A stretch of DNA of 64,000 nucleotides from Anadara kagoshimensis. Lineage: Eukaryota > Mollusca > Bivalvia > Arcoida > Arcidae. The stretch spans positions 42,606,780 to 42,670,779 of the forward strand of contig CM037874.1 of NCBI GenBank assembly GCA_021292105.1, in the 5' to 3' direction. Of this stretch, positions 16,348 through 61,184 are shown in pieces; positions within the stretch are counted from its first letter, which is position 1, and each line of letters begins with the position of its first letter. The position numbers and the translations under genes were made by a program. The notes under the pieces are model-generated. The model saw nothing but the letters and a program-made list of their open reading frames with translations. It was not told the origin of the DNA and did no database searches.

Positions 16348-17772
16348 ATAATTAAATTTTAAAAGACAAGTAAAAGAAAAAATATGTTTCAACATTTTTA
16401 ATCGTTTACATTTTAAAGAGCGTAAGAATTCATACGCTTGGTTACAACCGTCATAGCAACCGCCGACGACATACACCCGCCGACGTCAAACAGCTCAAAC
16501 GTCCAACTTTGAAACAGTTAATTATTTGCGAATTGGAATGTACAGTGGTTGAATGTTGAATTGGACATAAACCCCGATGTTTGAAAATTACTAGGATGTA
16601 ATGAAACTGAATTTTGGGAATGAACAACGGTCTGAGCAGAGGATTCAGGTGAAATTGAGCTGCCGATTTGCAAAGGGATGAATGGCTGGGGACGTGCTGG
16701 CAGAACAGGAACAATGGCGTCCGACTCGCAAGCATTCGAAGAAAGTATTGAAAGTGTGTTACTTAATGATTTTTTCTGTAATGTGGAGCACTGACGGTTG
16801 TAACTCCTTACAGAGCTTTCACTCCTGTGGCCACTCATGTACATGATGTGGCGTGCTTCATAGCCGGAGTCATTCATATATTATATGGCAGTTGCTCTCA
16901 AGGAATGACAAGTGAAACGTTGGACAAGTTTGGAATTTTTACAAATATCTGGCAGGTATGAACGAAACAGGTATGGTTTCACCGGTTTATTACTGTACCA
17001 AATTTCCTCATTTTTGTTTTTGAGTGAAGCTGCCGTACAGTGATTAAATAATGCAGTGGCTGACGAATCAGTTTTGTCTAAAAATAGTTTTAATGACGTC
17101 ACGGGACATCGGCCATCAGCTGATTCATTTGCGTACATTCTTTTGTCGGAATCATTTTCTGGATTATCCAGCCCACCTTGCCAGTTTTTTTGTTTCGTAT
17201 CATGGGAAAGAGTTACATATTCTTTACCGTTTTCATCTTTTTGGAAAAGGAATGAATTTGTTTTTAACTGCTGGTGGAATTCTAACCCCCTAGAAACGAA
17301 ATGTAAACTCAGGGAATACCAAACTCGAAATCTTAGGATAACCGGGGAGTCATCGGACCAAAGGTAAGTGCAAATCTTAACTAAATCAGATTGGGGAATA
17401 ATTGGTTTATGTGCAACTGGGCGAGACAGTCCATTTTGAAGATTGAATTTTAATTTTCCGTCCAAGTTTTCATTTGCAGTTTTAAATTCTCTTCCGCGAA
17501 CAATGTCCAAATCTCTGTTTATGTCTTTAAGATGTCTGTTAATAGCAGATCTTATTGACTTGAAAGAATTTTTGTGATATTCAGCAGCCTGTTCCATTGG
17601 TAAATCTCCTGATCTCTTTCCTGGATTCTTTGGTGTGGCCTCAAAGTAAAATTTGGATAAATACTCATTCAGCGTTTCAGCTGAAACTGTTTTAAAATCA
17701 ACTTTCGTTCCATGAACTTCTAAACACCATTCTAAAAAAACATTTAAAACAAAAAAATCTTGTGAGGTTTTT

Positions 17773-19800
17773 AGCTCACCTGACCGAAGGTCATGTGAGC
17801 TTATGGCATAGCGCAGCGTGTGTATGTGCGTGCGTGCGTGCGTGTGTGCGTCGTTAACACCTATTTTCGACTTCTCCTCTGAAACTACTGGACAGTTTTT
17901 AATGAAACTTTGTCAGAAGTATATATGGGCCGGTGCAATTCAGATTTGTTCGTGGCGTTGCTATGGCAACCATAACTAGGTCAAGGTGACCTAGGGGTGC
18001 AAAAATCTTAAAAAATCTTCTTCTCCGAAAGTACTGATAAGAGAAAAAATCTGATGTGATATTTGGCTTTTCTAGGGTCTTAAGCCTATAGTTTGTTCAT
18101 TTTGTGAAATTCGGATAAAAAATAGGTAACGCGTTTTTGCGTTTAATTTTGAAAAAAATCGTAAAATAGCTTCAAATTGTTATAACTTGACTATTTGACC
18201 AGATAATGACATGGGGTTTTCAGTTTTGACATCTTCTTGTTAGAATCTTCAAAATGAGGTCAAGGTCAATTGTGGAGGTCGTGACCTAATTTTTTTTACC
18301 TCTGATTATAATTATTATCTCGAAAACTATAAACTTTTTGTATAGGCATGTATATTAGAATGTTGTAGGCATCGACACAACGGTCATTTTGATATATAGA
18401 AAAAGGTCATGGGTTCAAAGGTCAAGGTCACAGATGTGAAACAATACCGAAATGGTTAATTATCTCGAAAACTATAAACAGTTTGTATAGGCATGTATAT
18501 TAGAATGTTGTAGGTATTGATACAACGATCATTTTGATGTATAGAAAAAGGTCATGGGTTCAAAGGTCAAGGTCACAGATGTGAAACAATACTGAAATGG
18601 TTAATTTTCTCGAAAACTATAAACGTTTTGTATAGGCATATACATTAGAATATTGTAGGTATTGATACAACGAGCATTTTGATGTATAGAAAAAGGTTAT
18701 GGGTTCAAAGGTCAAGGTCACAGATGTGAAACAATACCGAAATGGTTAATTATCTCGAAAACTATAAACGTTTTGTATAGGCATATACATAAGAATGTTG
18801 TAGGTATTGATACAATGATCATTTTGATGTACAGAAAAAGGTTATGGGTTCAAAGGTCAAGGTCACAGATGCAAAACAATACCAAAATGGTTAATTATCT
18901 CGAAAACTATAAACTTTTTGTATAGGCATGTATATAAGAATGTTGTAGGTATTGATACAACGATCATTTTGATGTATAGAAAAAGGTCATGGGTTCAAAG
19001 GTCAAGGTCAAAGATGTGAAACAATACTGAAATGGCTAATTATCTTGAAAACTAAAAACATTTTGTATAGGCATGTATATTAGAATGTTGTAGGTATTGA
19101 TACAACGATTATTTTGATGTATAGAAAAAGGTCATGGGTTCAAAGGTCAAGGTCACAGATGTGAAACAATACCGAAATGGTTAATTATCTCGAAAACTAT
19201 AAACAGTTTGTATAGGCATGTATATTAGAATGTTGTAGGTATTGATACAACGATCATTTTGATGTATAGAAAAAGGTCATGGGTTCAAAGGTCAAGGTCA
19301 CAGATGTGAAACAATACTGAAATGGTTAATTATCTCGAAAACTATAAACTTTTTGTATAGGCCTGTATATTAGAATGTTGTAGGGTATTGATACGAAGAT
19401 CATTTTGATGTATAGAAAAAGGTCATGAGTTCAAAGGTCAAGGTCACACATGCAAAACAATACCGAAATGGTTAATTATCTCGAAAACTATAAACGTTTT
19501 GTATAGGCATGTATATTAGAATGTTGTAGGTATTGATACAACAATTATTTTGATGTATAGAAAAAGGTCATGGGTTCAAAGGTCAAGGTCACAGATGTGA
19601 AACAATACTGAAATGGTTAATTATCTTGAAAAATATTAACTTTTTGTAAAGGCATGTATATTAGAATGTTGTAGGTATTGATACAATGGTTATCATGATG
19701 TAAAGAAAAAAGTCATTGGGGTTTAGTATTTATGTTTTCTTTAAATCTATCAGCTAGCCATTAGTTATCAGGTGAGCGTATCAGACCCTTGGGCCTCTTG
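17773..19800 (+). mobile_element. HINE-like (Helentron-type, non-autonomous) element with 145-bp tandem core
   Basis: Left end AGCTCACCTGACC and subterminal right CAGGTGAGCG form asymmetric inverted repeats. The right end is a hairpin-like GACCCTTGGGCC followed by CTCTTG. From about 18297 to 19720 there are roughly ten copies of a unit of about 145 bp, each with AAAGGTCAAGGTCACAGATG and GTATAGGCATGTATATTAGA. Copy 2 of the Crypton has the uninterrupted site (GAGGTTTTTATTTAATATT), which shows that the insertion added only two T residues besides the element. TT targeting, asymmetric inverted repeats, a 3' hairpin and a tandem core are the described traits of Helentron-associated elements. The assignment is inference. 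Confidence 0.7.
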
Positions 19801-21089: not shown

Positions 21090-22455
21090 GTTAATTATTT
21101 GCGAATTGGAATGTACAGTGGTTGAATGTTGAGTTGGACATAAATCCCGATGTTTGAAAATTATTAGGATGTAATGAAACTGAATTTTGGGAATGAGAAG
21201 AGGATTCAGGTGAAATTGAGCAAAGGGATGAATGGCTGGGGACGTGCTGGCAGAACAGGAACAATGGCGTCTGACTCGCAAGCATTCGTAGAAAGTATTG
21301 AAAGTGTGTTACTTAATGATTTTTTCTGTAATGTGGAGCACTGACGGTTGTAACTCCTTACAGAGCTTTCACTCCTGTGGCCACTCATGTACATGATGTG
21401 GCGTGCTTCATAGCCGGAGTCATTCATATGTTGGATGGCAGTTGCTCTCAAGGAATGGGAAGTGAAACGTTGGAGAAGTTTGGAATTTTTACAAATATCT
21501 GGCAGGTATGAACGAAACAGGTACAGGTATGGTTTCACCGGTTTATTACTGTCTGCCCTACAATGATTAAATAATGCAGTGGCTGACGGATCAGTTTTGT
21601 CTAAAAATAGTTTTAATGACGTCACGGGACATCGACCATCAGCTGATTCATTTGCGTACATTCTTTTGTCGGAATCATTTTCTGGATTATCCAGTCCACC
21701 TTGCCAGTTTTTTGTTTCGTATCATGGGAAAGAGTTACATATTCTTTACCGTTTTCATCTTTTTGGAAAAGGAATGAATTTGTTTTTAACTGCTGATGGA
21801 ATTCTAACCCCCTAGAAACGAAATGTAAACTCATGGAATACCAAACTCGAAATCTAAGGATAACCGGGGAGTCATCGGACCAAAGATAAGTGCAAATCTT
21901 AACAAAATTTAGATTGTGCAACTGGGCGAGACAGTCCATTTTGAAGATTGAATTTTAATTTTCCGTCCAAGTTTTCACTTGCAGTTTTAAATTCCCTTCC
22001 GCGAACAATGTCCAAATCTCTGTTTATGTCTTTAAGATGTCTGTTAATAGCAGATCTTATTGACTTGAAAGAATTTTTGTGATATTCAGCAGCCTGTTCC
22101 ATTGGCAAATCTCCTGATCTCTTTCCTGGATTCTTTGGTGTTGCCTCAAAGTAAAATTTCGATAAATATTCATTCAGCGTTTCAGCTGAAACGGTTTTAA
22201 AATCAACTTTCGTTCCCTGAACTTCTAAACACCATTCTAAAAAAAAACAGTGAAAACAAAAAAATTTTTTGAGGTTTTTATTTAATATTTCAATTTATTT
22301 ATTGTTTGTTTTTGCTAGAGAGTTCTTATTGTTTTATATCAAGTCGGTCCAGATACATCCAGATAGCTCAATGGAGAGCAACTCGACATTAAGTTGAGTC
22401 GGTTCAGGTTCAAGTCCTGATCTGGAAAAGCTTGATTTATTTTTGCCTTTTCAAC

Positions 22456-23024: not shown

Positions 23025-24911
23025 AGCTCACCTGGCTATGCCAGGGTGAGCTTTTGCCATCACTTTGCGTCCGGCGTCCGTCGTCCGTAAACTTTTCATT
23101 CAAAGATCTTCTTCATTGAAACTACTTGGCCAATTGAAACCAAACTTGGTCATAATAGTCTTTGGGTGGCCTCCTTTAAAAATTGTGTCGCTCAGGTTCA
23201 TACTTCATCCAAGATGGCCGCCAGCACGGAACACAGTTTATAATTAACATTGGAGCCTATGGGAAAATGCATTTAAAGAATTTTTTCTGAAGAACAACTG
23301 GGCCAATTGGAACCAAACTTTATCACAATAGTCCTTAGGTAGTCCCCTTTTAAAAAAGGTGTTTCGCAGGTTTCCATGTAATCCAAGATGGCTGCCAGAG
23401 GGAAAATAGTTTAACATTGGACCCTATGGGAACAATTTCAGAGATCTCTATCTCTGAAACTACTGGGCCAATTGAAACCAAACTTGGTCACAATAGTCTT
23501 TTAGTGGTCCCCTGTAAATATGATGGTTTTCAGGTCTGCACCAATTCCAAGATGGCCGCCAGCGCAGGACACATTTTAACATTGGACCGTAGGGGAAAAC
23601 GCATTCAAAGATCTTTTTAGCTCACCTAAACCTTTGGCTCAGATGAGCTATTGCAATCTATCACCGTCCGTCGTCCGTCGTGCGTCGTGCGTCGTCGGTC
23701 GTCCGTCGTTCGTCGTGTGTAAACTTTACATGATTATCTTCTCCTCCAAAACTACTAGGCCAAATTTGACGAAACTTGGCGATTATCATGCCTGGGTAAC
23801 AGCTTTCAAAATTGTGTTGGGGTTTGGCCACGCCCAACAAGATGGCCGCCGTTACTAAAAATAGCAAAAAGACAAAAAAATCTTCTTCTCTGAAACCAAA
23901 AGGTGCAGGCAAATTTTGATTGGACATTTACATTCAGCATACCTGGGAACATTAAAATTGTGTTTTTTATGAAAATTGAACGAAAAATAGGTTACGCGTT
24001 TATTGCGTGAAATTATGTAATTTTGAAAATGAGACATTTATTGTTATAACTCAATAACGGCTGAAGATAATTGTATGGAGTTTTCACTGTTGATCTTGTC
24101 TTGCTATTTTCTTCCAAAAGATGTCAAGGTCAAAGGTCAATGTCATGTCCCTGTTTTTGACCTTTGATAAAAAATGCTTATTTTTTTAAACATTTCAGGT
24201 GATAATGGCATGGGATTTTCAGTTAATTGTAGGTATTGACATGATGATCATTTTGATACATAGATCAAGGTCATGGGTTCAAAGGTCAATGTCAAAGATG
24301 AACAACTATTACCGTTATAGTTGATTATTTGCAAAACTATTAACTTTTCGTATAGGCATACATATTAAAATATTGTAGGTAATGGCACAATGGTCATTTT
24401 GATATATCAATAAAGGTCATGGGTTCAAAGGTCAAGGTCACAGATGCAAACAAGTACTGAAATGGTAAATTATCAAAAAAAAAAACTATAAACTTTTTGT
24501 ATAGGCATATATATTGGAATATTGTAGGTATTGGCCTAACAGTCATTTTGATATATGAATGAAGGTTATTGGTTCAAAGGTCAAGGTCACAAATGCAAGC
24601 AAGTACTGAAATGGTTGATTATCTCAAAAACTGTAAACCTCATTGTATAGACATATATATTGGAATATTGTAGGTATTAGTCTAATGATAATTTTGATAT
24701 ATGAATAAAGGTCATGAGTTTAAAAGTCAAGGTCACAGATGCAAATTAATACTGAATTGGTTAATTATCTTGAAAAGTATAAATATTTTGTTTAGGCATC
24801 TATGCTAGAATATTGTAGGTATTGGCCTAATGATCATTTTGATATATGAATGAGGCTTATAGGTTCAAAGGTCAAGGTCACAGGTGAGCGTTAAGGTCCA
24901 TGGGCCTCTTG
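23025..24911 (+). mobile_element. Composite HINE-like insertion: truncated 5' element joined to a complete element
   Basis: There are two left ends in the same direction: AGCTCACCTGGC at 23025 and AGCTCACCTAAACC at 23619. There is one right end, CAGGTGAGCG...GGGCCTCTTG, at 24911. The first part (to 23618) has a core of three repeats of about 155 bp with CCAATTGAAACCAAACTTGG and CCAAGATGGCCGCCAG. The second part has repeats of about 150 bp with GGTTCAAAGGTCAAGGTCAC. Both leading ends carry the GTCCGTCGTCCGT-type stretch just inside. Compared with copy 1 the junctions again add two T residues. Either the second element landed next to the first or the first lost its 3' part. Confidence 0.65.
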
Positions 24912-30730: not shown

Positions 30731-32965
30731 CAAGAGTCCCATAGACCTTAACGCTCACCTGAGGCCGAGTACATATCTCATGCAGAGGTTCAATGTCAAT
30801 GACATTAATTAAAGAGAAGTCCAAATTTTCAGTAGTAAGAGCCAATTATATGCAAGGATTTTTGCAAATTTATTATAGCTTGTCCTAAGAATGCTATATA
30901 TAACATATCTAAAGTCTAGCTACAATATATTATTTTTAAACAGCTAAAAAATCTATATATCAAATTGAACATTAGGCCAACACCTACAATTTTCTAACAT
31001 ACATGTCTATACAAAAAGTATATGTATATAGTTTTTGAGATAATGAACCATTTCAATATTTGTTTGCACCTGTAATCTTGACCTTTGAACCCATGACCTT
31101 CATCTATATATCATAGTGATCGCTAGGCCAATGCCTACAATATTCCAAAATATATGCCTATATAAAAAGTTTACAGTTTTTGAGATGATGAACCATTTCA
31201 ATTTTCGTTTGCATCTGAGACCTTGACCTTTAATTTGAACTTATGACCATCATTCATATATCAAAATGACCGTTAGGCTAATACCTACAATATCCCGATA
31301 TACATGCCTATACAAAATGTTATAGTTTTTGATATTATTTACCATTTCAGTATTCGTTTGCATTCGTGACCTTGACCTTTGAACCTATGACCTTCATTCA
31401 TATATCAAAATGATCATTGTGCAAATGCCTACAATATTTTGATATACTTGTTTTACAAAAAGTTTATAGTTTTTCAGATAATGAACTATTTACAGTATTT
31501 GTTCGAATCTATGACTTTGACCTTTGAACGTATGACCTTCATTCATATATCAAAATGATCGATAGGCCAATACTTACAATGTTCCAAATATATGCCTATA
31601 CAAAAAGTTTATAGTTTTTGAGATAATTACCCATTTCACTATTAGCTTGCATCTGAGACCTTGACCTTTGATCTTATGACCTTCATTCATATATCAAAAT
31701 GACCGTTAGGCCAATACCTGCAATTTTTCAGTATGCATGCCTATACGAAAAGTTTATAGTTTTTGAGATAATGAAACATTTCAGTATTCGTTTACATCTT
31801 TGGCCTCATCCTTTGAACATATGACTTTCATTAATATATCAAAATGATTGTTGTGTAAATGCCTACGGAATACGAGAAGGGTCACTAAAAATAAAAAATA
31901 TAACTGGTGCGCACGAGTTACTAACTTCAGCGCACAAGTTCCTTACTTGAGTTTCACAACTTGAGCGCACGAGTTGCTAACTTGTGCGCACGAGTTATAT
32001 TTTTTATTTTTGGTGACCCTTCTCGTCTTCCGTAAATGCCTACACTTTTCTAATAAACATGTCCATGTTTATAATTTTTTAGATAATGATCCATTTAAGT
32101 ACTCGTTCGCATGTATGACCTTGACCTTTGATCCCATGACGTGCATTCAAATAACAAACTGACTGTTAGGCCGATACCTACAATATTCTAATACTGTATA
32201 TATGCTGCCTTTACAAAAAGTATAAACTTTTTGAGATAAATAACCATTTCAGTACACATTCCAATCTATGACCTTGACCTTTGAACCCATGACCTTTATT
32301 AATATATCAAAATGCCATGTGCCATTACCTACAATATTCTAATATGCATGCCTGTACAAAAAGTTAATAGTTTTGCAGATGATTAACTATTTCGGTATAT
32401 TTGTGCATCTGTGACCTTGACCTTTAAACCCATGACCTTGATCTATGTATCAAAATTATTGTCATGTCAATACCTACAATTAACTGAAAATCCCATGCCA
32501 TAAACAACTTGAAATGTTTAAAAAATAGCACTTTTTATCAAAGGTCAAAAACTGGGACATGACCTTGACCTTTGACTTTGACATCTATTGGAAGAAAATA
32601 GCAAGACAAAATCAACAGTGAAAACTCCATACAATTATCTTCAGCTGTAACCTATTTTACGCCCAATTTTCATGAAAAACGCAATGTTAATGTTCCCTGG
32701 TATCCTGAATCCAAATATCCAATCAAAATTTGTCTCCACCTTTTGATTTCAATAAAGAAGATTTTTTTGTGTTTTTGGCTATTTTTGTAACGGTGGCCAT
32801 TTTGTCAGGCATGGCTAAATCCGGAACATAATTTTAAAAGCCTGTTACCCAGGCATGATATTCATCAATTTCATCAAATTTGGCTTAGTAGTTTCGGAGA
32901 AGAAGATTTTTGAAAAATTGTTAACGGACGACAGACGACAGACGTCAAGTGATGGCAATAGCCAA
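30731..32965 (-). mobile_element. HINE-like element, inverted, with about ten diverged core repeats
   Basis: CAAGAG at 30731, then GTCCCATAGAC and CGCTCACCTG, match the 3' end of the family in reverse complement. From about 30960 to 32470 there are repeats of about 145 bp carrying TGACCTTGACCTTTGAACC and TTCATATATCAAAATGA. The other end keeps the GACGACAGACGTC region but the terminal AGCTCACC has decayed. More diverged than 17773-19800. It ends about 1.1 kb upstream of the TATA box of IL-17 gene 1. Confidence 0.65.
31867..32031. mobile_element. 165-bp palindromic MITE with 12-bp target-site duplication
   Basis: The terminal inverted repeats are about 53 bp with four mismatches (GGAATACGAGAAGGGTCAC versus GGAAGACGAGAAGGGTCAC at the tips). 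The interior has repeated GCGCACGAGTT / GCGCACAAGTT motifs. The flanks GTAAATGCCTAC at 31855-31866 and 32032-32043 are identical. It is nested in the HINE-like element, whose repeat unit continues normally on both sides. Confidence 0.8.
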
Positions 32966-34204: not shown

Positions 34205-35259
34205 ATGATTAAGGTAAGTTAAACTAGTCCATTACATAAGTGTACACATTGGATACATTTTCATATTGATTTATCAACATTTTGGTTCCAGTGTTTGCTG
34301 TTTTCATGTACTATCCTTTTAGTTAAATCTTTTTTTCTTCTACTTCTATATCAGCAAGTAAATGGGGTTTCATTATTTCAAATAATTAATGTTCAAGTTT
34401 AAATACATTAAAATATGATACAATGGTCACCTTTTAATTAAAACCCGTACTTGAAGGTTCCTTTGTTTAATTTTTTTAAACCAAAATGAACCTGTATATA
34501 CATACTAACGATTTTCTGTAAAGTCTATATTTCTAAGGTCCCGTGGGTGTATTTATTCAACCAAATAATAACCATCATCATTGTTTATAATATTGATGAA
34601 AAAGAAATTAATAGAAAACGTAATGTAATGTGCTCAGAATTAGAAAGGTATTTTATATTTTATTTCAGATGGAAATGATACTTTTTTTTGCTACTGTATG
34701 TTTGTACCTTGCCACAGGAACCACCAAAACTACAGAATGTATTGATGTCATAAGTGCTCACAACTTTTCTACAAGTATAAATTCAGGGTTTAACCATACA
34801 GAATACTTTATGTCTTCTACATCTGGAGACATTTCGGAAACATGGGTCGACATAGCTTTTAGAAGTAGGCATGGGCCTGATAATACAAAATGTCCGAATT
34901 TTTTACCACGAGGTGATTATCCCGTAATGATGCGTTCTACTTGTCCATGGTATATCAAATTAAACTACGATCCCGAAAGATTCCCCGCTACAATTCCATA
35001 TGCAGTCAGTCGATGCCAAACTTGTGTAGGGTCTGATGGAAGTAAGAAATGTGAACCTATACGTCGTAAAATAAATATTTTGAAACAAGCAGAAAATTGT
35101 GAGAGTGGTTTGTACAGGTATACACAACAAGAAATGAACATTGTCGTTGCCTATGTTTGTACTGTTCCTAGAGAAATAGAAAACAGTTTGAATAAAAATA
35201 ATGAATATACATTTACTAGTACCACTCTAGCTTCAAATGATCCAAGGCCCATTGCATAA
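34205..35259 (+). CDS. IL-17-family cytokine, gene 1 (two exons)
   Basis: Secreted IL-17-type cystine-knot cytokine that would act on IL-17-receptor-like proteins of other cells. The CDS joins 34205-34213 (Met-Ile-Lys, then GTAAGT) to 34669-35259 after TTTCAG, phase 0, 199 residues. A hydrophobic signal peptide spans about residues 5-20. The mature chain has Cys 27, 78, 95, 119, 122, 131, 147 and 167, with the family hallmarks RSTCPWYIKLNYDPERFPATI, SRCQTC and CEPIRRKINIL. The usual C-terminal CTC pair is reduced to one Cys (VAYVCTVP). N-glycosylation sequons are at N35 and N45. The micro-exon start was chosen because gene 2 has the same structure; reading straight through the acceptor would remove the signal-peptide start context. 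A four-codon upstream ORF (34194-34208) overlaps the start. AATAAA lies at 35270-35275, 11 nt after the stop, with another near 35749. Confidence 0.92.
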
Positions 35260-44404: not shown

Positions 44405-47400
44405 ACATTTCAGCCTCTTTGTTGGCGTTTTAACGTTCTTAATTTTGCGTTACAACGCCTTTTAGTTTGTGTTTTTACGTCTTTTATTCGCATAATATAC
44501 CGCTTTTCTGTTGGCCTTTTTTTAGTCGCCTCTTTCTTGGCGTTATAACTGTTTTAATTTTGCGTTACAACGCCTTTTAGTTTGTGTTTATACGTCTTTT
44601 TTCGCGTTATATACCGCTTTTCTGTTGGCTTTTTAGTCGCTTCTTTGTTAATTTTTTAATTTTGCGTTACAACGCCTTTTAGTTTGTGTTTTATGTCTAA
44701 TTTTGGCGTTATATAACGATTTTCTGATGGCGTTTCTGTCGCCTTTTTGATGGCGTTATAACTGTTTTTAATTTTGCGTTACAACGCCTTTTAGTTTGTG
44801 TTGTTATGTCTAATTTTCGCGTTATATAACGCTTTTCTGTTGGCGTTTTTGTCGCCTCTTTGTTGGCGTTTTAACGTTTTTTGGTTTTTTTTTTTGCGTT
44901 ACCAGAACGACTGTCATTATCACACAAATAACCCAAAAAGACTCTCCGTATCACACAAATAACACAGAACGACTGTCAGTATCACATCAATAACACAGAA
45001 CGACTGGCGTTACAACGCCTTTTAGTTTGTGTTGTTTGTCTAATTTTCGCGTTATATACCGCTTTTATGATGACGTTTTTGTCGCCTCTTTGTTGGCGTT
45101 ATAACTTTTTAAATGTTGCGTTACATTGCCTTTCAGTTTGTGTTGTTACGTCGCCTCTTTGTTGGCGTTATTGTGTTTTAAATTTCGCGTTACAACGCCT
45201 TTTAGTTTGTGTTACGTCTAATTTTGGCGTTATATACGCTTTTCTTCGGCGTTTTTGTCGCCTCTTTGTTTGCGTTATAACGATTTAAATGTTGCGTTAC
45301 AACGCCTTTTAGTTTGTGTTGTTACGTCTTCATATTTAATTATATAACGCTTTTCTGTTGGCGGTTTTGTCCCCTCTTTGTTGGCGTTATAACGATTCAA
45401 ATTTTGCGTTTCAACGCCTTTTAGTTTGTGTTGTTACGTCTGTATATTTCCTTATATAACGCTTTTCTGTTGGCGTTTTTTCGCCTCTTTGTTGGCGTTT
45501 TTGTCGCCTCATTGTTGGCGTTATAACGATTTAAATTTTGCGTTAAAACGCCTTTAAGTTTGTTTTGTTACGTCTATATATTCCTTTATATAACGCTGGC
45601 GTTTTTCTCGCCTCTTTGTTGGCGATATAACGATTGAAATTTTGCGTTACAACACCTTTTAGTTTGTGTTGTTACGTCTGTATATTTCTTGATATAACGC
45701 TTTTCTTTGTTGGCGTTATAACGTTTTTTATAATTTTGCGTTGCAACGCCTTTTAATTTGTGATGTTATTTCTGTTTTTCGCGTTATATTTTGCTTTTCT
45801 GTTTGCGTTTTTGTCACATCTTTGTTGCCGTTATAACTGTTTTTATTTTGCGTTACAACGCCAATTAGTTTGTGTTGTTACGTCTATATCTTGCTTTATA
45901 TAACGCTTTTTTGTTGGCGTTTTTTTGTCGCCTCTTTGTTGGCGTTATAACGTTTTAAATGTTGCGTTACATCGCCTTTAAGTTTGTGTTGTTACGTCTA
46001 TATATTTCATTATATAACGCTTATTTGTTGGCGTTTTTGTCGCCTCTTTGTTGGCGTTATAACGTTTTTTATAATTTTGCGCTACAAAGCCTTTTAGTTT
46101 GTGTTGTTACGTCTATATGTTTCATTATATAACGCTTTTCTGTTGGCGTTTTTGTCGCCTCTTTGTTGGCGTTATAACGATTTAAATTTTGCGTTTCAAC
46201 GCCTTTTAGTTTGTGTTGTTACGTCTATATATTTCATTATAAAACGCTTTTCTGTTTGTGTTTTTGTCGCCACTTTGATGGCGTTATAACTGTGGAGATA
46301 CAACGCCTTTTACTTTGTGTTGTTACGTCTGTATATTTCTTTATATAACGCTTTTCTGTTGGCGTTTTTGTCGCCTCTTTGATGGCTTTATAACGATTTA
46401 AATTTTGCGTTACAACACCTTTTAGTTTTGTGTTGTTACGTCTGTATATTTCTTGATATAACGCTTTTCTGTTGGCGTTTTTGTCGCCTCTTTGTTGGCG
46501 TTATAACGTTTTTTATAATTTTGCTTTGCAACGCCTTTTAATTTGTGATGTAATTTCTGTTTTTCGCGTTATATTTTGCTTTTCTGTTTGCGTTTTTGTC
46601 ACATCTTTGTTGCCGTTATAACTGTTTTTCATTTTGCGTTACAACGCCAATTAGTCTGTGTTGTTACGTCTATATCTTGCTTTATATAACGCTTTTCTGT
46701 TGGCGTTTTTTGTCGCCTCTTTGTTGGCGTTATAACGTTTTAAATGTTGCGTTACATCGCCTTTAAGTTTGTGTTGTTACGTCTATATATTTCATTATAT
46801 AACGCTTATCCGTTGGCGTTTTTGTCGCCTCTTTATTGGCGTTATAAGGTTATAAATTTTGCGTTACAACGCCTTTTAGTTTGTGTTCTTACGTCTATAT
46901 ATTTCATTATATAACGCTTTTCTGTTGGCGTTTTGTCGCCTCTTTGCTGGCGTTATAACAATTTGAATTTTGCGTTACAACGCCTTTTAGTTTGTGTTGT
47001 TACGTCTATATATTTCATTATAAAACGCTTTTCTGTTGGTGTTTTTGTCGCCACTTTGATGGCGTTATAACTGTTTTTTCATTTTGCCTTACAGCGTCTT
47101 TTATTTTGTGTTGTTACGTCTATATCTTGCTTTATATAACGCTTTTCTGTTGGCGTTTTTGTTGCCTCTTTGTTGGCGTTATAACGTTTTAAATTTTGCG
47201 TTACAACGCCTTTTAGTTTGTGTTGTTACGTCTATATATTTCATTATAAAACGTTTTTCTGTTGGTGTTTTTGTCGCCACTTTGATGGCGTTATAACTGT
47301 TTTTTTCATTTTGCCTTACAGCGCCTTTTAGTTTGTGTTGTTACGTCTATATCTTGCTTTATATAACGCTTTTCTGTTGGCGTTTTTGTTGCCTCTTTGT

Positions 47401-50400
47401 TGGCGTTATAACGTTTTAAATTTTGCGTTAAAACGCCTTTTAGTTTGTGTTGTTACGTCTATATCTTGCTTTATATAACGCTTTTCTGTTGGCGTTTTTG
47501 TTGCCTCTTTGTTGGCGTTATAACGATTTAAATTTTGTGTTACAACGCCTTTTAGTTTGTGTTGTTACGTCTATATATTTCATTATAAAACGCTTTTCTG
47601 TTGGTGTTTTTGTCGCCACTTTGATGGCGTTATAACTGTTTTTCATTTTGCCTTACAGCGCCTTTTAGTTGTGTTGTTACGTCTTTATATTTCATTATAT
47701 AACGCTTTTCTGTTGGCGTTTTTGTCGCCTCTTTGTTGGCGTTATTATGACTTAAATTTCGCGTTACAACGCCTTTTAGTTTGTGTTGTTACGTCTAATT
47801 TTGGCGTTATATAACGCTTTTCTATCGGCGTTTTTGTCGCCTCTTTCTTTGCGTTATAACGATTTAAATGTTGCGTTACAACGCCTTTTAGTTTGTGTTG
47901 TTGCGTCTTTATATTTCATTATATAACGCTTTTCCGTTGGCATTTTTGTCGCCTCTTTGTTGGCGTTATAACGATTGAAATTTTGCGTGACAACATTTTT
48001 AGTTTGTGTTGTTACGTCTGTATATTTCTTGATATAACGCTTTTCTGTTGGCGTTTTTGTCGCCTCTTTGTTGGCGTTATAACAATTGAAATTTTGCGTG
48101 ACAACATTTTTAGTTTGTGTTGTTACATCTGTATATTTCTTGATATAACGCTTTTCTGTTGGCGTTTTTGTCGCCTCTTTGTTGGCGTTATAACGTTTAA
48201 TTTTGCGTTACAACGCCTTTTAGTTTGTGTTGTTACGTCTATATATTTCTTATATAACGCTTTTCTGTTGTCGTTTTTGTCGCCTCTTTGTTTGCGTTAT
48301 AATTGTTTTTAATTTCGCATAACAACGCCTTTTAGTTTGTGTTGTTACGTTTAATATTTCATTATATAACGCTTTTCTGTTGGCGTTTTTGTCGCCTCTT
48401 TGTTGGCGTTATAACGTTTTAAATTTTGCATTAAAACACCTTTTAGTTTGTGTCGTTACGTGTATATCTTTCATTAGATAATGATTTTCCTCTTTGTTGG
48501 CGTTACAAACGATTCAAATTTTTGCGTTACAACACGTTTTAGTTTGTGTTATTACGTCTTTATATTTCATATATAACGCTTTTCTGTTGGCGTTTTTTGT
48601 ATCCTCTTTGTTGGCGTTATAACGATTGAAATTTTGCGTTACAACGCCTTTTAGTTTGTGTTGTTTCGTCTATATATTTCATTATATAACGCTTTTCTGT
48701 TGGCGTTTTTGTCGCCTCTTTGTTTGCGTTATAACGTTTTTTATAATTTTGCGTTGCAACGCCTTTTTAGTTTGTATGTTATTCTGTTTTCGCGTTATAT
48801 AACGCTTTTCTGTTGGCGTTTTTGTCGCCTCTTTTTTGGCGTTTTAACGTGTTTTTTTTTGCGTTACCAGAACGACTGTCAGTATCACACAAAAAACACA
48901 GAACGAATGGCGTTACAACGCCTTTTAGTTTGTGTTGTTATGTCTAATTTTGGCGTTATATAACCCTTTTCTGATGGCGTTTTTGTCGCCTCTTTGTTGG
49001 CGTTATAACTGGTTTTTATTTTGCGTTACAGCACCATTTAGTTCGTGTTGTTATGTCTAATTTTGGCGTTATATAACCCTTTTCTGATGGAGTTTTGTCG
49101 TCTCTTTGTTGGCGTTATAACTGTTTTTAATTTTGCGTTACAATGCCTTTTAGTTTGTATTGTTATGTCTAATTTTGGCGTTATATAACGGTTTCTGATA
49201 GTGTTTTTGTCGCCTCTTTGTTGGCGTTATAACTTTGTTAATTTTGCGTTACAACGTCTTTTAGTTTGTGTTGTTACGTCTAATTTTGCGTTATATAACC
49301 CTTTTCTGATGGCGTTTTTGTCGCCTCTTTGTTGGCGTTATAACTTTTTTTATTTTGCGTTACAACGTCTTTTAGTTTGTGTTTTTATGTCTAATTTTAG
49401 GGTTATATTTTGCTTTTCTGTTGGCGTTTTTGTCGCCTCTTTGTTGGCATTATAACTTTTTTAATTTTGCGTTACAACGTCTTTTAGTTTGTGTTTTTAT
49501 GTCTAATTTTGGTGTTACATAACCCTTTTCTGATGGGGTTTTTGTCGCCTCTTTGTTGGCGTTATAACTGTTTTTAATTTTGCGTTACAACACCTTTTAG
49601 CTTGTGTTATGTCTAATTTTGGCGTTATATAACCCTTTTCTGATGGCGTTTTTGTCGCCTCTTTGTTGGCGTTATAACTGTTTTTAATATTGCGTTACAA
49701 CACCTTTTAGTTCGTGTTGTTATGTCTAATTTTGGCGTTATATAACCCTTTTCTGATGGCGTTTTTTGTCGCCTCTTTGTTGGCGTTATAACTGTTTTAA
49801 TTTTGCGTTACAACACCTTTTAGTTCGTGTTGTTATGTCTAATTTTGGCGTTATATAACGCTTTCTGATGGCGTTTTTGTCGCCTCTTTGTTGGCGTTAT
49901 AACTTTTTAATTTTGCGTTACGTCTTTTAGTTTGTGTTGTTATGTCTAATTTTGGCATTATATAACCCTTTTTCTGATGGCGTTTTTGTCGCCTCTTTGT
50001 TGGCGTTATAACTGTATTTATTCTGCGTTACAACACCTTTTAGTTTGTGTTGTTATGTCTAATTTTGGCGTTATATAACCCTTTTCTGATGGCGTTTTTG
50101 TCGCCTCTTTGTTGGCGTTATAACTGTTTTTAATTTTGCGTTACAACACCTTTTAGTTCGTGTTGTTATGTCTAATTTTGGCGTTATATAACCCTTTTCT
50201 TCTGATGGCGTTTTTGTCGCCTCTTTGTTGGCGTTATAACTTTTTTAATTTTGCGTTACAACGTCTTTTAGTTTGTGTTTTTATGTCTAATTTTAGGGTT
50301 ATATTTTGCTTTTCTGTCGGCGTTTTTGTCGCCTCATTGTTGGCGTTATAATTTTTTGTTTTGTTACAACGCCTTTAGTTTGTGTTGTTACGTCTATATA

Positions 50401-50495
50401 TTTCTTTATATACAGCTTTTCTGTTGGCTTTTTAGTCGCCTCTTTGTTGACGTTATAACTGTTTTTCATGTTGGCGTTTTAACGGGTTTTTTTGC
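44403..50495. repeat. Satellite array, unit about 112 bp, roughly 54 units
   Basis: Each unit contains GGCGTTTTTGTCGCCTCTTT, GTTGGCGTTATAACG, TTTTGCGTTACAACGCCTTT, TAGTTTGTGTTGTTACGTCT and GTTATATAACGCTTTTCTG. Spacing is 112 bp where measured (for example 47149 to 47261). The unit is itself made of three GCGTT-centred dyads, including the 14-bp palindrome GCGTTATATAACGC. Patches of the 31-bp satellite interrupt the array at about 44895-45005 and 48868-48908. The many ORFs here (with repeating FLSPLCWRYN and LQRLLVCVVTS) are by-products. The cluster lies between the two IL-17 genes. Confidence 0.95.
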
Positions 50496-52983
50496 GTTCC
50501 CAGAACGACTGTTAGTATCACACAAATAACCCAAAAAGACTATCAGTATCACACAAATAACATAGAACGACTGTCAGTATCACACAAATAACCCAAAACG
50601 ACTGTCAGTATCACACAAATAACCCAGAACGACTGTCAGTATCACACAAATAACCCAGAACGACTGTCAGTATCACACAAATAACATTGAACGACTGTCA
50701 GTATCACACAAATAACCAAGAACCACTACCCGTATCACACAAATTACCCAGAACGACTACCAGTATCACACAAATAACCAAGAACGATAACCGGTATCAC
50801 ACAAATAACCTAGAATGACTGTCGGAATCACACAAATAAACCAGAACGACTACCGGTATCACACAAACCTCCCAGAACAACTGTCAGTATTACACAAATA
50901 ACCCAGAACGACTGTCAATATCACACAAATAACCCAGAACGACTACCGGTATCACACAAATAACCAAGAACGACTACCACTACCGGTATCACACAAATAA
51001 CCCAGAACGACAGTCGGTATCACACAAACCTCCCAGAACAACTGTCAGTATCACACAAATAACCCAGAACGACTGTTAATATCACACAAATAACCCAGAA
51101 CGACTACCGGTATCACACAAATAACCCAGAACGACTACCGGTATCACACAAACCTCCCAGAACAACTGTCAGTATTACACAAATAACATTGAACGACTGT
51201 CAGTATTACACAAATAACCCAGAACGACTGTCAATATCACACAAATAACCCAGAACGACTACCGGTATCACACAAATAACCCAGAACGATTACCGGTATC
51301 ACACAAACCTCCCAGAACAACTGTCAGTATTACACAAATAACCCAGAACGACTGTCAATATCACAAAAATAACCCAGAACGACTGTCAATATCACACAAA
51401 TTACCCAGAACTACTACCGGTATCACACAAATAACCTAGAACGACTACCGGTATCACACAAACCTCCCAGAACAACTGTCAGTATTACACAAATAACCCA
51501 GAACGACTGTCAATATCACACAAATAACCCAGAACGACTACCGGTATCACACAAATAACCCAGAACGACTACCGGTATCACACATATAACCCAGAACGAC
51601 AGTCAGTATCACACAAATAACCCAGAACGATTGTCGGTATCACACAAATAACCAAGAACCACTACCCGTATCACACAAATTACCCAGAACGACTACCAGT
51701 ATCATACAAACAACCAAGAACGATTACCGGTATCACAAAAATAACCTAGAATGACTGTCGGTATCACACAAATAACCCAGAACGACTACCGGTATCACAC
51801 AAACCTCCCAGAACAACTGTCAGTATTACACAAATAACCCAGAACGACTGTCAATATCACACAAATAACCCAGAACGACTACCAGTAGCACACAAATAAC
51901 CAAGAACGACTACCGGTATCACACAAATAACCCAGAACGACAGTCGGTATCACACAAACCCGTCCCAGAACAACTGTTAGTATCACACAAATAACCCAGA
52001 ACGACAGTTTTTTTCACACAAATAACCCAGAACGACTATCGGTATGACACAAATCTCTCAGAACGACTGTCAGTATCACACAAATAACCCAAAACGATTG
52101 TTGGTATCACACATATAACCCAGAACGACTACCGGTATCCACAAATAACCCACCAGAACGACTAGTTGATATCACACAAATAACCCAGAACGATTGTCAG
52201 TATCAAATAAATAACCCAGAACGACAGTCGGTATCACACAAATAACCCAGTACGATTGTCAGTATCACATAAATAACCCAGAACGACTGTCAATATCACA
52301 CAAATCTCCCATAACGACTGTCAGTATTACACAAGTAACACAGAACGACTGTCAATATCACACAAATAACCCAGAACAACTACCGGTATCACACAAATAA
52401 CCCAGAACGACTACCGGAATCACACAAATAACCCAGAACGACAGTCAGTATTACACAAACCTCCTAGAACAACTGTCAGTATCACACAAATAACCCAGAA
52501 CGACAGTTGGTATCACACAAATAACCCCGAACGACTATCGGTATCACACAAATATCTCAGAACGACTGTCAGTATCACACAAATAACCCAGAACGATTAT
52601 CGGTATCACACAAATAACCCAGAACGACTACCAGTATCACACAAATAACCCAGGACGACTGTCAGTAGCACTCAAATAACCCAGGACGACTGTCGGTATC
52701 ACACAAATAACCCAGAACGACTGTCGGTATCACATAAATAACCCAGAACGAATACCGGTATCACACAAATAACCCAGAAGGACTGTCAGTATAACACAAA
52801 TAACCCAGAACGACTGTCGGTATCACATAAATAACTCGGAACGACTACCGGTATCACACAAATAACCCAGAAGGACTGTCAGTATAACACAAATAACCCA
52901 GAACGACTGTCAGTATCATACAAATAACCCAGAACGACTGCCAGTAGCACACAAATAACCAAGAACCACTACCCGTATCACAC
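50496..52983. repeat. 31-bp minisatellite array, part 1
   Basis: The unit reads CACACAAATAACCCAGAACG followed by ACTGTCAGTAT or ACTACCGGTAT, about 80 copies. A mosaic of CTGTCAGT, CTGTCGGT and CTACCGGT variants suggests a shuffled higher-order pattern, for example recurring blocks with CACACAAACCTCCCAGAAC. The transposon at 52989 splits this array. Confidence 0.95.
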
Positions 52984-52988
52984 AAATT
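52984..52988. repeat. Target-site duplication AAATT, left
   Basis: Identical to 56009-56013. Joining the flanks restores a normal 31-bp unit variant (CACACAAATTACCCAGAAC) present elsewhere in the array. Confidence 0.85.
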
Positions 52989-54494
52989 CACAGTGTGGGA
53001 CCGGAAGTTGAGTCAAACTGTACAGTTGTCGGTAGCTCTGTTAATCGAAGCGAGGAATGAAAACAGTGGAGTCAAACGCAAGAAAAAATATGTAAAATTA
53101 CTGTTGTTATGAAGTGTTGTGAGATTTTTCATAGGTACATGGATCTCACTATGTTAATGCAATTTTTAATTATCCAACACATTTTGTGAAAAATCAAGCC
53201 TAAAACTTTAATTTGTTTGTTGAACATGATTGATCACAGCGGAATTGTCATGAATTCACGATTTATTCTCAATTTTCTCTATATTACTATTCTATTTAAT
53301 ACCATTCTGAAGACAGTTTGCAAGCTATGAATGTTAAAAATAACTTGTGACTTATTACAGTACTTACAAGTTTTGAGAAAACTTCAAAACACGATTTTAT
53401 TGGACTGTGTGGTTTTCTGTTTACTGTACAGGTAGCTCACATTTTATGAAATTGTACTGTACAGGTAGCTCGCAACCGGCATTCAAATTCAAAGTATAGA
53501 AAGTATAAAAAACGCTTTCATTTAATAGAAATGCATGTATTCTTGAAAAAAAACAAGGTTTGATTTTTATATTTGGGTTACAGGGGTATAAAAGTAGGGT
53601 TAATATCTAAAATGCGTGTATCAGGCGTGACATTCATATTCTAAGGCAATCAACGATCTAAAATACATCAAGTCATAAAAAGGACATAGTCAGACAATAC
53701 TGTTCTATATAAATTAAGGCAAATATTGTTTATCATGAACAATATACAACTGAATACTATTATGACTCTAAAATAGTAAAAGGATATAGATATAATCTTA
53801 GAATGAGAGAATCACGCGTGGGTAACGCATTTTAAAAGACACCTAAATCGTAGATCTATGGCATAAATTGTCTAAATATCATAAAGCACAGTTTATACGT
53901 TTTACTTTGCGTTTTGTCATCAGATTAACCAAATCAATCATATCTTGTATTATCCCTGGTGAAATATTCTTCATATGGTTTGAGAAATCATCGTTAACCA
54001 GGACGTTTTTGGATCAAGATTGCGTTGTGAACACTGACCTTGGTTTTTCCAACCACCATGAAACGAAGTAACGTTCCCTTAAACAATTTAGAACCAATGT
54101 GCCAGAACTGTCTAACTTCAGCTGATTATCTCATCACATGACTGTCCTTTGTAGAAAACCATTCGATTACCTCTAGAAACAGTAAATATGAAATGATTTT
54201 CATTGGAAAAGCATTTTGCATCAGAACTGAAGGCTATTAAATTTCAAGTATTAATCTTCATGCTCATACTCTCTAAGAATTGCAATTACTTTCGGTAGCA
54301 TTTCTGATAGCGTTTGTGGAAGCGGTACATCTGCTGGTGTCATTTCATCCATTAAGGAACGGTAAAAGATGGCCCCGTCTGGCATGCATTTGTACATGAT
54401 GTTTCTATGATATTTAATCTGTAACAGATAAATTCGAGAAGCTGTAGATTAGAAAATCTTCTTCGTCCATATTGTTGTCAGATGTATCATCATG

Positions 54495-54820
54495 TTATGA
54501 ATTCTTTGTAGGCGTAGAGTGTAACAAAAATTTCTTTGGTGTTTGGAATGGAGAATCGTTTGGGCGTTTTGAATTTTTTATTTTTTCAGTTAATTCGTTT
54601 GGTATAAGAATGTTGTTGTCTTTCTCGTATTCCCTTCGGATGATGTGGAAATTTTTAATTCGAATATCTCCTTGATTGAGGTCTGTGTTATTAACTGCTT
54701 GTGAAATATTATACAATGGTCGACAACCTCAAAAAAATTTAATTTTGCTTTACTTTTGCAGTATAAACAATGGAATCGTTTCGGTGTTTTTGAACATCTG
54801 AAATTAAGAAAATGTTGCAA
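54495..54820 (-). pseudogene. Frameshifted ORF fragment with a C2H2-like zinc finger, inside the transposon
   Basis: On the minus strand one frame (from 54820) reads FHCLYCKSKAK...DHCIIFH, a Cys-x2-Cys...His pattern. Near 54700 the other frame carries on with a charged segment (IRIKNFHIIRREYEKDNN) and a basic Pro/Ser-rich end. The change of frame looks like a single indel in one ancestral coding exon. I recall similar finger-plus-linker exons in unnamed molluscan proteins but cannot name one. It could be captured host sequence or a remnant of the element's own gene. Confidence 0.35.
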
Positions 54821-54862
54821 TAGTATATATATATTATTGCAACATTTTCTTAATTTCAGATG
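54795..54862. repeat. Perfect 28-bp-arm hairpin
   Basis: CATCTGAAATTAAGAAAATG...CAATA at 54795-54822 is exactly reverse-complemented at 54835-54862, with a 12-bp TA-rich loop. It adjoins the (TA)n tract. Confidence 0.85.
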
Positions 54863-54865
54863 CTA

Positions 54866-54919
<54 letters not shown>

Positions 54920-54930
54920 ATATATACTAG

Positions 54931-54997
<67 letters not shown>

Positions 54998-54998
54998 G
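54863..54998. repeat. (TA)n tract
   Basis: About 135 bp of nearly pure TA dinucleotides with short breaks. AATGTTGCAA recurs at its far side (about 55001-55010). Confidence 0.85.
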
Positions 54999-55042
54999 AA
55001 AATGTTGCAAAAAATTAAAATAAACCAGAAATGTCGAAAGTA

Positions 55043-55453
55043 GACTATTACCCCCCCACAGAAAAAATAAGAATAAGAATTTCAGCGGACACGATATTGT
55101 GACGGAAAAATAAATTTGACCTCATGACCTTGACCTTATGCAACACATCGTCTCATGTTGGTTTACATTTGTGCTAAGTTTGATCCAAATCCATCGGTAG
55201 ACGTGGAAGATATGTGCAGGTACGATATTGTGGCAAAAACTAATATTTGACCTCATGACATTGACCTTTGACACATCAGCTCATGTTGTTTTACATCTGT
55301 GCCAAGTTTGGTGAAAATCTATTGATAGACATGGAGGATATGGAGAGGACACAATATTGAGACAGACAACCAGACGGATGGACGGACGGGCGGACAGGCA
55401 GGGTGATTTCTATATACCCCCTGCACTTCGTTTGCGGGGGGGGGGGGGTATAA
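55043..55453. repeat. Nested repeat element with C-tract/G-tract ends and two core repeats
   Basis: Starts at CTATTACCCCCCC and ends at GGGGGGGTATAATA. The core holds two diverged repeats of about 120-130 bp (TTTGACCTCATGACCTTGACC, GCCAAGTTTGGTGAAAATC) followed by a GACGGATGGACGGACGG stretch. It resembles the tandem-core elements elsewhere in the window but with different ends. Confidence 0.55.
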
Positions 55454-56008
55454 TAATGCATTCAACCTTGAATTATTATTTGTTTGAATTTTGAGCTACC
55501 TGTACAGAAAAATTACAGATATTTAGAGCTACCTGTACAGTATTTTCGAGCTACCTGTACAGTAAACAATCTCCAAGGTGCAAAGAAAAATCTTATTTAT
55601 AACAATAACCATTTAAAGGAGGGTGATGTCATCTTAATATATGTGTAACTTTATATTAAAAGCTGTCTTAAGTATTGTTTGTTACACTAGAAAATTCATC
55701 ACGCTAGAGAATTTACGCATTTTTTTCGCTATAAGTCGATGTATTTTATCTCACTGTCTCGTGTTCAAGTGCTATTATTGTCGAGCGTATAATGATATAA
55801 GTGCAACGAATTCTTAAAATGGTAAATAATTTCATCGTCAAATTTCTCCATTTGAATTTCTATCCAGATCTTGCATTATATGCTTAATACAAGTTAAAAA
55901 GTAACCACCAACCGTTTCAGACATCTTGTTTTTATTTCGTCTCTCGCTTCAATTAACAGAGCTACCGAAAACTGTACAGTTTGACTCAACTTCCGTTCCC
56001 ACACTGTG

Positions 56009-56100
56009 AAATTACCCAGAACGATTCTCGGTAGCACACAAATAACCCAGAACGACTACCAGTATCACACAAATAACCCAGAAGGACTCAGTATCACACA
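56009..56100. repeat. 31-bp minisatellite array, resumption after the transposon
   Basis: AAATTACCCAGAACG continues the unit cut at 52988; three units follow before the assembly gap. Confidence 0.9.
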
Positions 56101-57100
56101 NNNNNNNNNNNNNNNNNNNNNNNNNNNNNNNNNNNNNNNNNNNNNNNNNNNNNNNNNNNNNNNNNNNNNNNNNNNNNNNNNNNNNNNNNNNNNNNNNNNN
56201 NNNNNNNNNNNNNNNNNNNNNNNNNNNNNNNNNNNNNNNNNNNNNNNNNNNNNNNNNNNNNNNNNNNNNNNNNNNNNNNNNNNNNNNNNNNNNNNNNNNN
56301 NNNNNNNNNNNNNNNNNNNNNNNNNNNNNNNNNNNNNNNNNNNNNNNNNNNNNNNNNNNNNNNNNNNNNNNNNNNNNNNNNNNNNNNNNNNNNNNNNNNN
56401 NNNNNNNNNNNNNNNNNNNNNNNNNNNNNNNNNNNNNNNNNNNNNNNNNNNNNNNNNNNNNNNNNNNNNNNNNNNNNNNNNNNNNNNNNNNNNNNNNNNN
56501 NNNNNNNNNNNNNNNNNNNNNNNNNNNNNNNNNNNNNNNNNNNNNNNNNNNNNNNNNNNNNNNNNNNNNNNNNNNNNNNNNNNNNNNNNNNNNNNNNNNN
56601 NNNNNNNNNNNNNNNNNNNNNNNNNNNNNNNNNNNNNNNNNNNNNNNNNNNNNNNNNNNNNNNNNNNNNNNNNNNNNNNNNNNNNNNNNNNNNNNNNNNN
56701 NNNNNNNNNNNNNNNNNNNNNNNNNNNNNNNNNNNNNNNNNNNNNNNNNNNNNNNNNNNNNNNNNNNNNNNNNNNNNNNNNNNNNNNNNNNNNNNNNNNN
56801 NNNNNNNNNNNNNNNNNNNNNNNNNNNNNNNNNNNNNNNNNNNNNNNNNNNNNNNNNNNNNNNNNNNNNNNNNNNNNNNNNNNNNNNNNNNNNNNNNNNN
56901 NNNNNNNNNNNNNNNNNNNNNNNNNNNNNNNNNNNNNNNNNNNNNNNNNNNNNNNNNNNNNNNNNNNNNNNNNNNNNNNNNNNNNNNNNNNNNNNNNNNN
57001 NNNNNNNNNNNNNNNNNNNNNNNNNNNNNNNNNNNNNNNNNNNNNNNNNNNNNNNNNNNNNNNNNNNNNNNNNNNNNNNNNNNNNNNNNNNNNNNNNNNN
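56101..57100. other. Assembly gap, exactly 1000 N
   Basis: A round-number run of N inside the minisatellite, so its true length is unknown. Long ORFs spanning it are artefacts. Confidence 0.99.
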
Positions 57101-60071: not shown

Positions 60072-61184
60072 ATGAAGGTAAGAAAATTTTAATTTCAAGT
60101 TTAGCTGTTTGATACTTTTTATCTACAAAGCAAACCAGAACGATGAGCAGCATTTGTAAGATATACAAGTCAAATAAATTTCAATTATAAATTCTACACT
60201 TAATACGGCCCATGTTACATTCACATTTAGAGGTAGACCCGTACTGTTAGTTAAAACAATTGTAAAAGAACCATTATATGTTTACACATTTAACAGACAA
60301 TACCATGAATGTTTATATATTGAAGATATGTCAATACCGTTCATGGTGAAAAAGTCTGCTTGGGAATGTTTATCTATTAACAATTAAATAATTAAATAAT
60401 TCAGCGTGAACTCATACAACATTATTGCATTATTGGTAATGTTCCAGATATGCTAATTGTATTTCAAGCTGGATATATTTAAAACGTTTTTCCCCTTTAA
60501 ATGCAAACAAAAAATTCAAGGATTCTATATATTGTACCTTAACTCTAATTCTTTTTATTTCAGATTGATACCATTTTGATTTTGTTACTTGTGTTCCTTG
60601 ATTTTGTCATAAAGACAAATGGTGATACTAATGGTAGTAATCCATCCACATTATCAGAATGTACTTATCCAAACAATGCTGAAAATCATTACGTTAGTTT
60701 GAATTCAGGATTTAATCATACAGAATACTTTATGCAACAGTTTTCTACATCTGGAGACATTTTGGAAACATGGGTCGACATAGCTTTTAGAAGTAGGCAT
60801 GGGCCTGATAATACAAAATGTCCGAATGTTTTACCACGAGGTGATTATCCCGTAATGATGCGTTCTACTTGTCCATGGTATATCAAATTAAACTACGATC
60901 CCGAAAGATTCCCCGCTACAATTCCATATGCAGTCAGTCGATGCCAAACTTGTGTAGGGTCTGATGGAAGTAAGAAATGTGAACCTATACGTCGTAAAAT
61001 AAATATTTTAACACAAGCAGAAAATTGTGAGAGTGGTTTGTACAGGTATACACAACAAGAAATGAACATTGTCGTTGCCTATGTTTGTACAGTTCCTAGA
61101 GAAATAGAAAACAGTTTGAATAAAAATAATGAATATACTGTTTCCAGACCTGCACTTCCAGATGACCCAACACCTATAGCATAA
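60072..61184 (+). CDS. IL-17-family cytokine, gene 2 (two exons)
   Basis: A paralogue of gene 1 and likewise a predicted secreted cystine-knot cytokine. The CDS joins 60072-60077 (Met-Lys, then GTAAGA) to 60564-61184 after TTTCAG, phase 0, 208 residues. A strong hydrophobic signal peptide (ILILLLVFLDFVI) spans residues 6-18. The N-terminal mature part is unlike gene 1 apart from SGFNHTEYFM. From residue about 63 the sequence nearly equals gene 1 through RSTCPWYIKLNYDPERFPAT (Cys at 105), SRCQTC, CEPIRRKINIL and VAYVCTVP, then diverges in the last 15 residues. Without the micro-exon no ATG begins the signal peptide in frame, which supports the splice model. The best polyadenylation signal is AATAAA at 61767-61772, giving a 3' UTR of about 0.6 kb. 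Confidence 0.92.

Follow-up and report, generated by a model that had tools for sequence, protein, structure and literature searches.

Transib and the RAG-like transposons are the described systems closest to the element analysed here. In the account given in PMC8289069, most Transib families have symmetric terminal inverted repeats (TIRs), a heptamer, and little or no similarity to the nonamer, and the target duplications of Transib, ProtoRAG and RAG show a tendency to be GC-biased. A paper from 2025 places Transib in the CMCT clade, for which it describes mostly CA..TG termini and duplications of 2-5 bp (PMC12730594). RAG-like (RAG1L-RAG2L) transposons with 5-bp duplications and CAC ends are reported to occur in bivalves, and non-autonomous ones are known from Pinctada imbricata (PMC7204232).

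The window, a stretch of 64,000 nucleotides from the genome of the bivalve Anadara kagoshimensis, contains a transposon that an earlier note had proposed as a candidate Transib/RAG-like element. The element is very probably a copy of a young non-autonomous family of cut-and-paste DNA transposons, internally deleted from a larger gene-bearing element. The assignment of this family to Transib or RAG is possible.

The element and its insertion site

The transposon resides in an array of 31-bp satellite units (Table 1), and both its coordinates and the AAATT on either side, as given in the earlier note, were borne out by direct reading. The note had also claimed that removal of the element restores the satellite, and excision in silico of the element together with one AAATT indeed leaves the empty site cacacAAATTacccag, while CACACAAATTACCCA was counted three times in satellite stretches beside the element. 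The heptamer CACAGTG is present three times in the window, counting both strands, and two of these occurrences are the ends of the element. With a tolerance of three mismatches, a pattern of 37 bp taken from the ends matched two places in the window and nothing in 100 shuffles.

Taken by itself, the window copy leaves the junction ambiguous, since it could equally be read as having TCACAGTG ends and a 3-bp duplication of AAT. This alternative was rejected because the other copies described below begin at CACAG and only a length of 5 bp often matches in their flanks. The onset of similarity is at CACAG in 29 of the 30 loci listed and two bases later in the remaining one (L031), and the precision claimed for the boundaries was thus upheld.

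The satellite to the right of the element is interrupted by exactly 1000 N (56101-57100), a gap whose size is probably unspecified. The same 31-bp satellite is adjoined by long arrays of tandem units, each about 112 bp in length (45150-50478). The gap starts 92 bases past the right end of the element, which would suit a chance inverted repeat or an assembly artefact within the satellite; however, the same ends recur in 20 more complete copies elsewhere in the genome, and this explanation, already refuted, retains a negligible probability.

Other parts of the window carry features of their own. Two ORFs of 211 aa on the plus strand (34624-35259 and 60549-61184) have most of their sequence in common and presumably resemble molluscan IL-17-like cytokines. 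On the minus strand, two near-duplicate coding stretches (16518-17912 and 21206-22294), each split into several ORFs, look like a protein that we take to be of the tyrosine-recombinase type. Three tandem arrays whose units are alike and about 145 bp long are found at 18314-19716, 24226-24883 and 30955-31852, the third being oriented opposite to the first two. A search of the remainder of the window for other copies of the element gave TA-rich matches only.

Table 1. Positions in the window of the transposon, its parts and the adjoining satellite.
Feature	Position	Strand	Remarks
Transposon copy	52989-56008		3020 bp, inside 31-bp satellite; direct reading
31-bp satellite array left of the element	50499..52987		Insertion target
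Left target-site duplication AAATT	52984..52988	none	Direct reading; 5-bp length also across copies
Left TIR	52989..53062	+	74 bp, starts CACAGTGTGGGACC
Palindrome CTGTACAG in left TIR	53018..53025	none	Followed by 5 bases, then GGTAGCTC
Left subterminal array	53423..53471	+	ACTGTACAGGTAGCTC twice, at element positions 435 and 468
Decayed, frame-broken coding remnant	53974..54790	-	tblastn; longer open pieces in sister copies
Palindrome with 34-nt arms	54795-54862		Beside the (TA)n run
(TA)n run	54864..54997	none	Inside the element
128-bp unit	55091..55342	none	1.9 tandem copies inside the element
Right subterminal array	55493..55563	-	Three inverted copies of ACTGTACAGGTAGCTC, one with a mismatch
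Right TIR	55935..56008	-	74 bp; minus-strand start CACAGTGTGGGAAC
Palindrome CTGTACAG in right TIR	55972..55979	none	Arranged with GGTAGCTC as in the left TIR
Right target-site duplication AAATT	56009..56013	none	Direct reading; 5-bp length also across copies
Same 31-bp satellite right of the element	56009..56100		As far as the run of N

Terminal repeats and subterminal sites

The inverted repeats, put at about 66 bp in the earlier note, are 91.9% identical over the 74 bp measured in the window copy. Agreement between them decreases inwards, from 57 of the first 60 positions to 7/10, 5/10 and 2/10 in the positions that follow. The ends had been described as exactly CACAGTG, which holds for both ends of the window copy but not for the right end of the family: among 21 copies (the window copy and 20 others, see below), the left heptamer is invariably CACAGTG, while the right one is CACTGTG in 13 and CACAGTG in 8. 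Heptamer ends of the CAC type are therefore found in 21/21 copies. At the spacings of recombination signals, no nonamer was found at either end of the window copy or of copy L036, the agreement being 1/9 with a spacer of 12 and 2/9 with a spacer of 23.

Both TIRs of these two copies carry TTGAGTCAA from base 20 and, from base 30, the palindrome CTGTACAG. In the window TTGAGTCAA occupies positions 53008-53016 and 55981-55989, and TGAGTCA is a site of the AP-1 type. The palindrome occurs seven times in the element and is absent from the remaining window, and none of 5000 simulated elements contained it more than twice. Five of the seven lie approximately 435-500 bp from an end in the form CTGTACAG-GTAGCTC; the left side has two of these and the right side three, with like orientation relative to their own end. 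All 21 copies have six or seven CTGTACAG palindromes and carry the subterminal CTGTACAG-GTAGCTC motif on both sides. This set of TIR and subterminal sites looks like a series of putative transposase binding sites.

Copies of the family

That other copies with these TIRs exist was confirmed by a search with the left 212 bp of the element against the 1.115-Gb host assembly (36 contigs, the window being on contig C18), which gave 493 candidates, of which 40 were scored, with identities of 96-100%. The 20 copies read end to end were the best after the window among these 40 and are not a random sample. The right end, and with it the second TIR, was found in 20/20, and their lengths range from 1491 to 3272 bp.

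Of the 21 copies, 18 have a target duplication of exactly 5 bp, the exceptions being L037 (7 bp), L038 (6 bp) and L049, which has no duplication. When flank matches were counted for every length k from 1 to 12, k=5 gave 18, and every other length at most 3 (k=1, 3; k=2, 1; k=3, 1; k=4, 0; k=8, 0). Two lengths that had been named beforehand as speaking against the Transib/RAG-like proposal were among those counted: 8 bp, typical of hAT elements, is present in none of the 21 copies, and 2 bp, found as AT in ISL2EU (PHIS), in one. The 18 duplications have a GC content of 23%, compared with 36% in their flanks. They start with A in 15 cases and end with T in 11, and C stands just before the duplication in 11; pooled over both positions, A in first or T in last place is found in 26/36 (p = 1e-6, in a test picked after the sites were seen).

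In the terminal 480 bp, identity between the window copy and the 20 others is 95.1-99.6% at the left end and 95.6-99.6% at the right end, gaps not being counted, and L045 and L048 agree at 100.0% of the aligned positions over the left 480, again with gaps left out. Such identity among the termini suggests a recent spread of the family. Outside the host assembly, the TIR, motif and peptide patterns had no hits in the collection viral_contigs, the TIR had none in genome_contigs, and 82 bases of the left end were not found in phages. Across the 21 copies, TIRs and duplications at unrelated sites are combined with the lack of an intact transposase gene, as in a non-autonomous TIR transposon.

The coding remnant

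The statement of the earlier note that no transposase is visible stands in so far as no intact gene was found in the copies read; however, a decayed coding remnant is present on the minus strand. Of the 20 other copies, 19 gave a tblastn match to its protein, as did the window; L039 was the exception. The remnant comprises, in this order, a C2H2-like finger (FHCLYC...DHCIIFH), the segment MDEMTPADV...LPKVIAILREYEHED, and YLLFLEVIEWFSTKDSHVMR..AEVRQFWHIGSKLFKG..LRFM. The C2H2-like spacing of the finger is FHCLYC-x13-H-x4-H, and the block YLLFLEVIEWFSTKDSHVMRYSAEVRQFWHIGSKLFKGKLLRFMGG represents the majority of five copies. Some copies keep longer open pieces of it; L035, L036 and L042, for instance, each retain one of 129 aa, and L040 has one of 87 aa. 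The longest stop-to-stop piece is 72-147 aa in the 20 copies and 90 aa in the window copy.

On the minus strand, 53750-54800 obtained a coding score of 20.4, a value attained in 16 of 2000 simulations, as against 7.1 on the plus strand. The tile that covers most of the remnant has a score of 17.5 and ranks 12th of the 58 tiles of the window, tiles without a known gene equal or exceed it (satellite tile 58857 reaches 22.9), and the score is also high at 55468-55408 on the minus strand, within the element but outside the remnant. The comparison of copies is the stronger evidence that the remnant is probably coding, and weighs more than this modest score.

A Pfam search gave nothing for the remnant at E up to 10; the remnant may represent an N-terminal part only. 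A match to SMAP (Pfam, E 0.084), below the cut-off of that family, was not taken as meaningful, and comparison with PDB by sequence returned only weak, unrelated matches (E 0.54, 0.67 and 0.7). For the remnant protein, six pattern stretches in viral_contigs were noted and none was confirmed, and a peptide-pattern match in one Thermoleophilia contig of genome_contigs (L001), which had no hit to the family protein, was judged to be due to chance. DUF6589, guessed as the protein family of the remnant, had no mention in the literature searched. Similar invertebrate proteins presumably have a YqaJ-like nuclease at the C-terminus. YqaJ is carried by ISL2EU elements, according to PMC4482050, and their duplications are of 2 bp. 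The readings weighed below do not draw on this resemblance.

Relationship to known superfamilies

The family resembles Transib in its 5-bp duplications, symmetric TIRs and CAC-type heptamer ends, and could accordingly be a non-autonomous Transib, moved by a Transib transposase (a relative of the RAG1 core) encoded elsewhere, the remnant then being an extra or captured gene. The little or no nonamer similarity of most Transib families likewise fits. However, the duplications of the family are AT-rich and not GC-biased, the remnant, which may be N-terminal only, has no match to RAG1 or other significant match in Pfam, and a survey of mollusc genomes reports one ORF-bearing Transib element (PMC10294476). 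The 74-bp TIR and the CTGTACAG arrays may further set the family apart. An origin in Transib appears unlikely, albeit a reading to be taken seriously. The part of the original proposal that stands is thus the 5-bp duplications and CAC ends, while the AT-rich duplications, the lack of a RAG1 match in Pfam and of a nonamer, and the departure from the protostome consensus described next tell against it.

The case for a passenger of a RAG-like transposon is weaker still. The family has in common with the protostome RAG-like elements the first three bases CAC, the 5-bp duplications and the occurrence in bivalves, but the rest of its TIR start is off the protostome consensus CACTWMCAAACKTYKBB (PMC7204232). 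Three ends, namely the two of the window copy and one of L036, agree with it at 6, 6 and 7 of 17 positions, compared with a random mean of 9.0. The absent nonamer and the AT-rich duplications also speak against this origin, neither RAG1L nor RAG2L was seen in the copies read, and the reading, already disfavoured, is highly improbable.

Among other known superfamilies, duplications of 5 bp are given for hAT5 (PMC12730594) and of 4 or 5 bp for Ginger2 (PMC10045372). The likeness to hAT5 concerns the length of the duplications, the comparison being made by this length and by domain. However, no significant Pfam match was obtained in the remnant, and therefore no hAT or integrase domain was detected there; such a domain could lie outside the remnant if the latter is N-terminal only. 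Membership of hAT5, Ginger2 or a similar known superfamily is improbable. The CMC group (EnSpm/CACTA, Mirage, Chapaev) shares termini of the CA..TG type, but its own duplications are described as 2-4 bp (PMC4482050), whereas those of the family are 5 bp, and at each of these three lengths the flanks match in at most one of the 21 copies.

The remnant may instead be the mark of DNA transposons of an undescribed group, whose ends resemble those of Transib but whose enzyme is a different one. The C2H2-like finger and YLLFLEVIEWFSTKDSHVMRYSAEVRQFWHIGSKLFKGKLLRFMGG block without significant Pfam match, the AT-rich ANNNT targets and the discrepancy in duplication length with CMC all point in this direction. 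Against it, none of the copies read showed a recognisable catalytic region, and because of this no enzyme can be named; the group may also be a known superfamily whose N-terminal part is lacking in Pfam. An undescribed or unrecognised source group, the chances of which come close to even, is more likely than Transib proper. It is a more tentative proposal that the remnant is part of the transposase of an undescribed animal superfamily that independently uses CAC(A/T)GTG ends and a 5-bp stagger.

Origin and mobilisation of the family

The element has the appearance of a passenger with an internal deletion that is mobilised in trans. We infer that the members of the family derive, by internal deletion, from a source element with a gene running leftwards from the right end. 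This source would have been larger, with a minus-strand gene extending inwards from the right end and encoding a protein with the C2H2-like finger, and its internal deletion would have given rise to the non-autonomous family. The protein of the remnant may have been either the transposase or an accessory protein. The transposase of an intact relative may bind the TIRs and subterminal sites, pair the ends and cut at the heptamers. Joining to the target would occur with a 5-bp stagger and a preference for ANNNT, and the filling of the gaps by repair would generate the 5-bp duplications. Both the mobilisation in trans and the identity of the enzyme are matters that we infer, because no autonomous copy is among those read.

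The CTGTACAG-GTAGCTC sites and the remnant common to the copies offer two handles for locating the enzyme, whichever reading holds. If the family belongs to Transib, it would represent a numerous young family in a mollusc, where one survey has Transib genes scarce (PMC10294476), and would add natural RSS-like ends for comparison. If it does not, a CACAGTG end and 5-bp duplications would not by themselves identify a relative of RAG. Should the source be an independent superfamily, a heptamer of the V(D)J type would not suffice to diagnose the Transib/RAG lineage.
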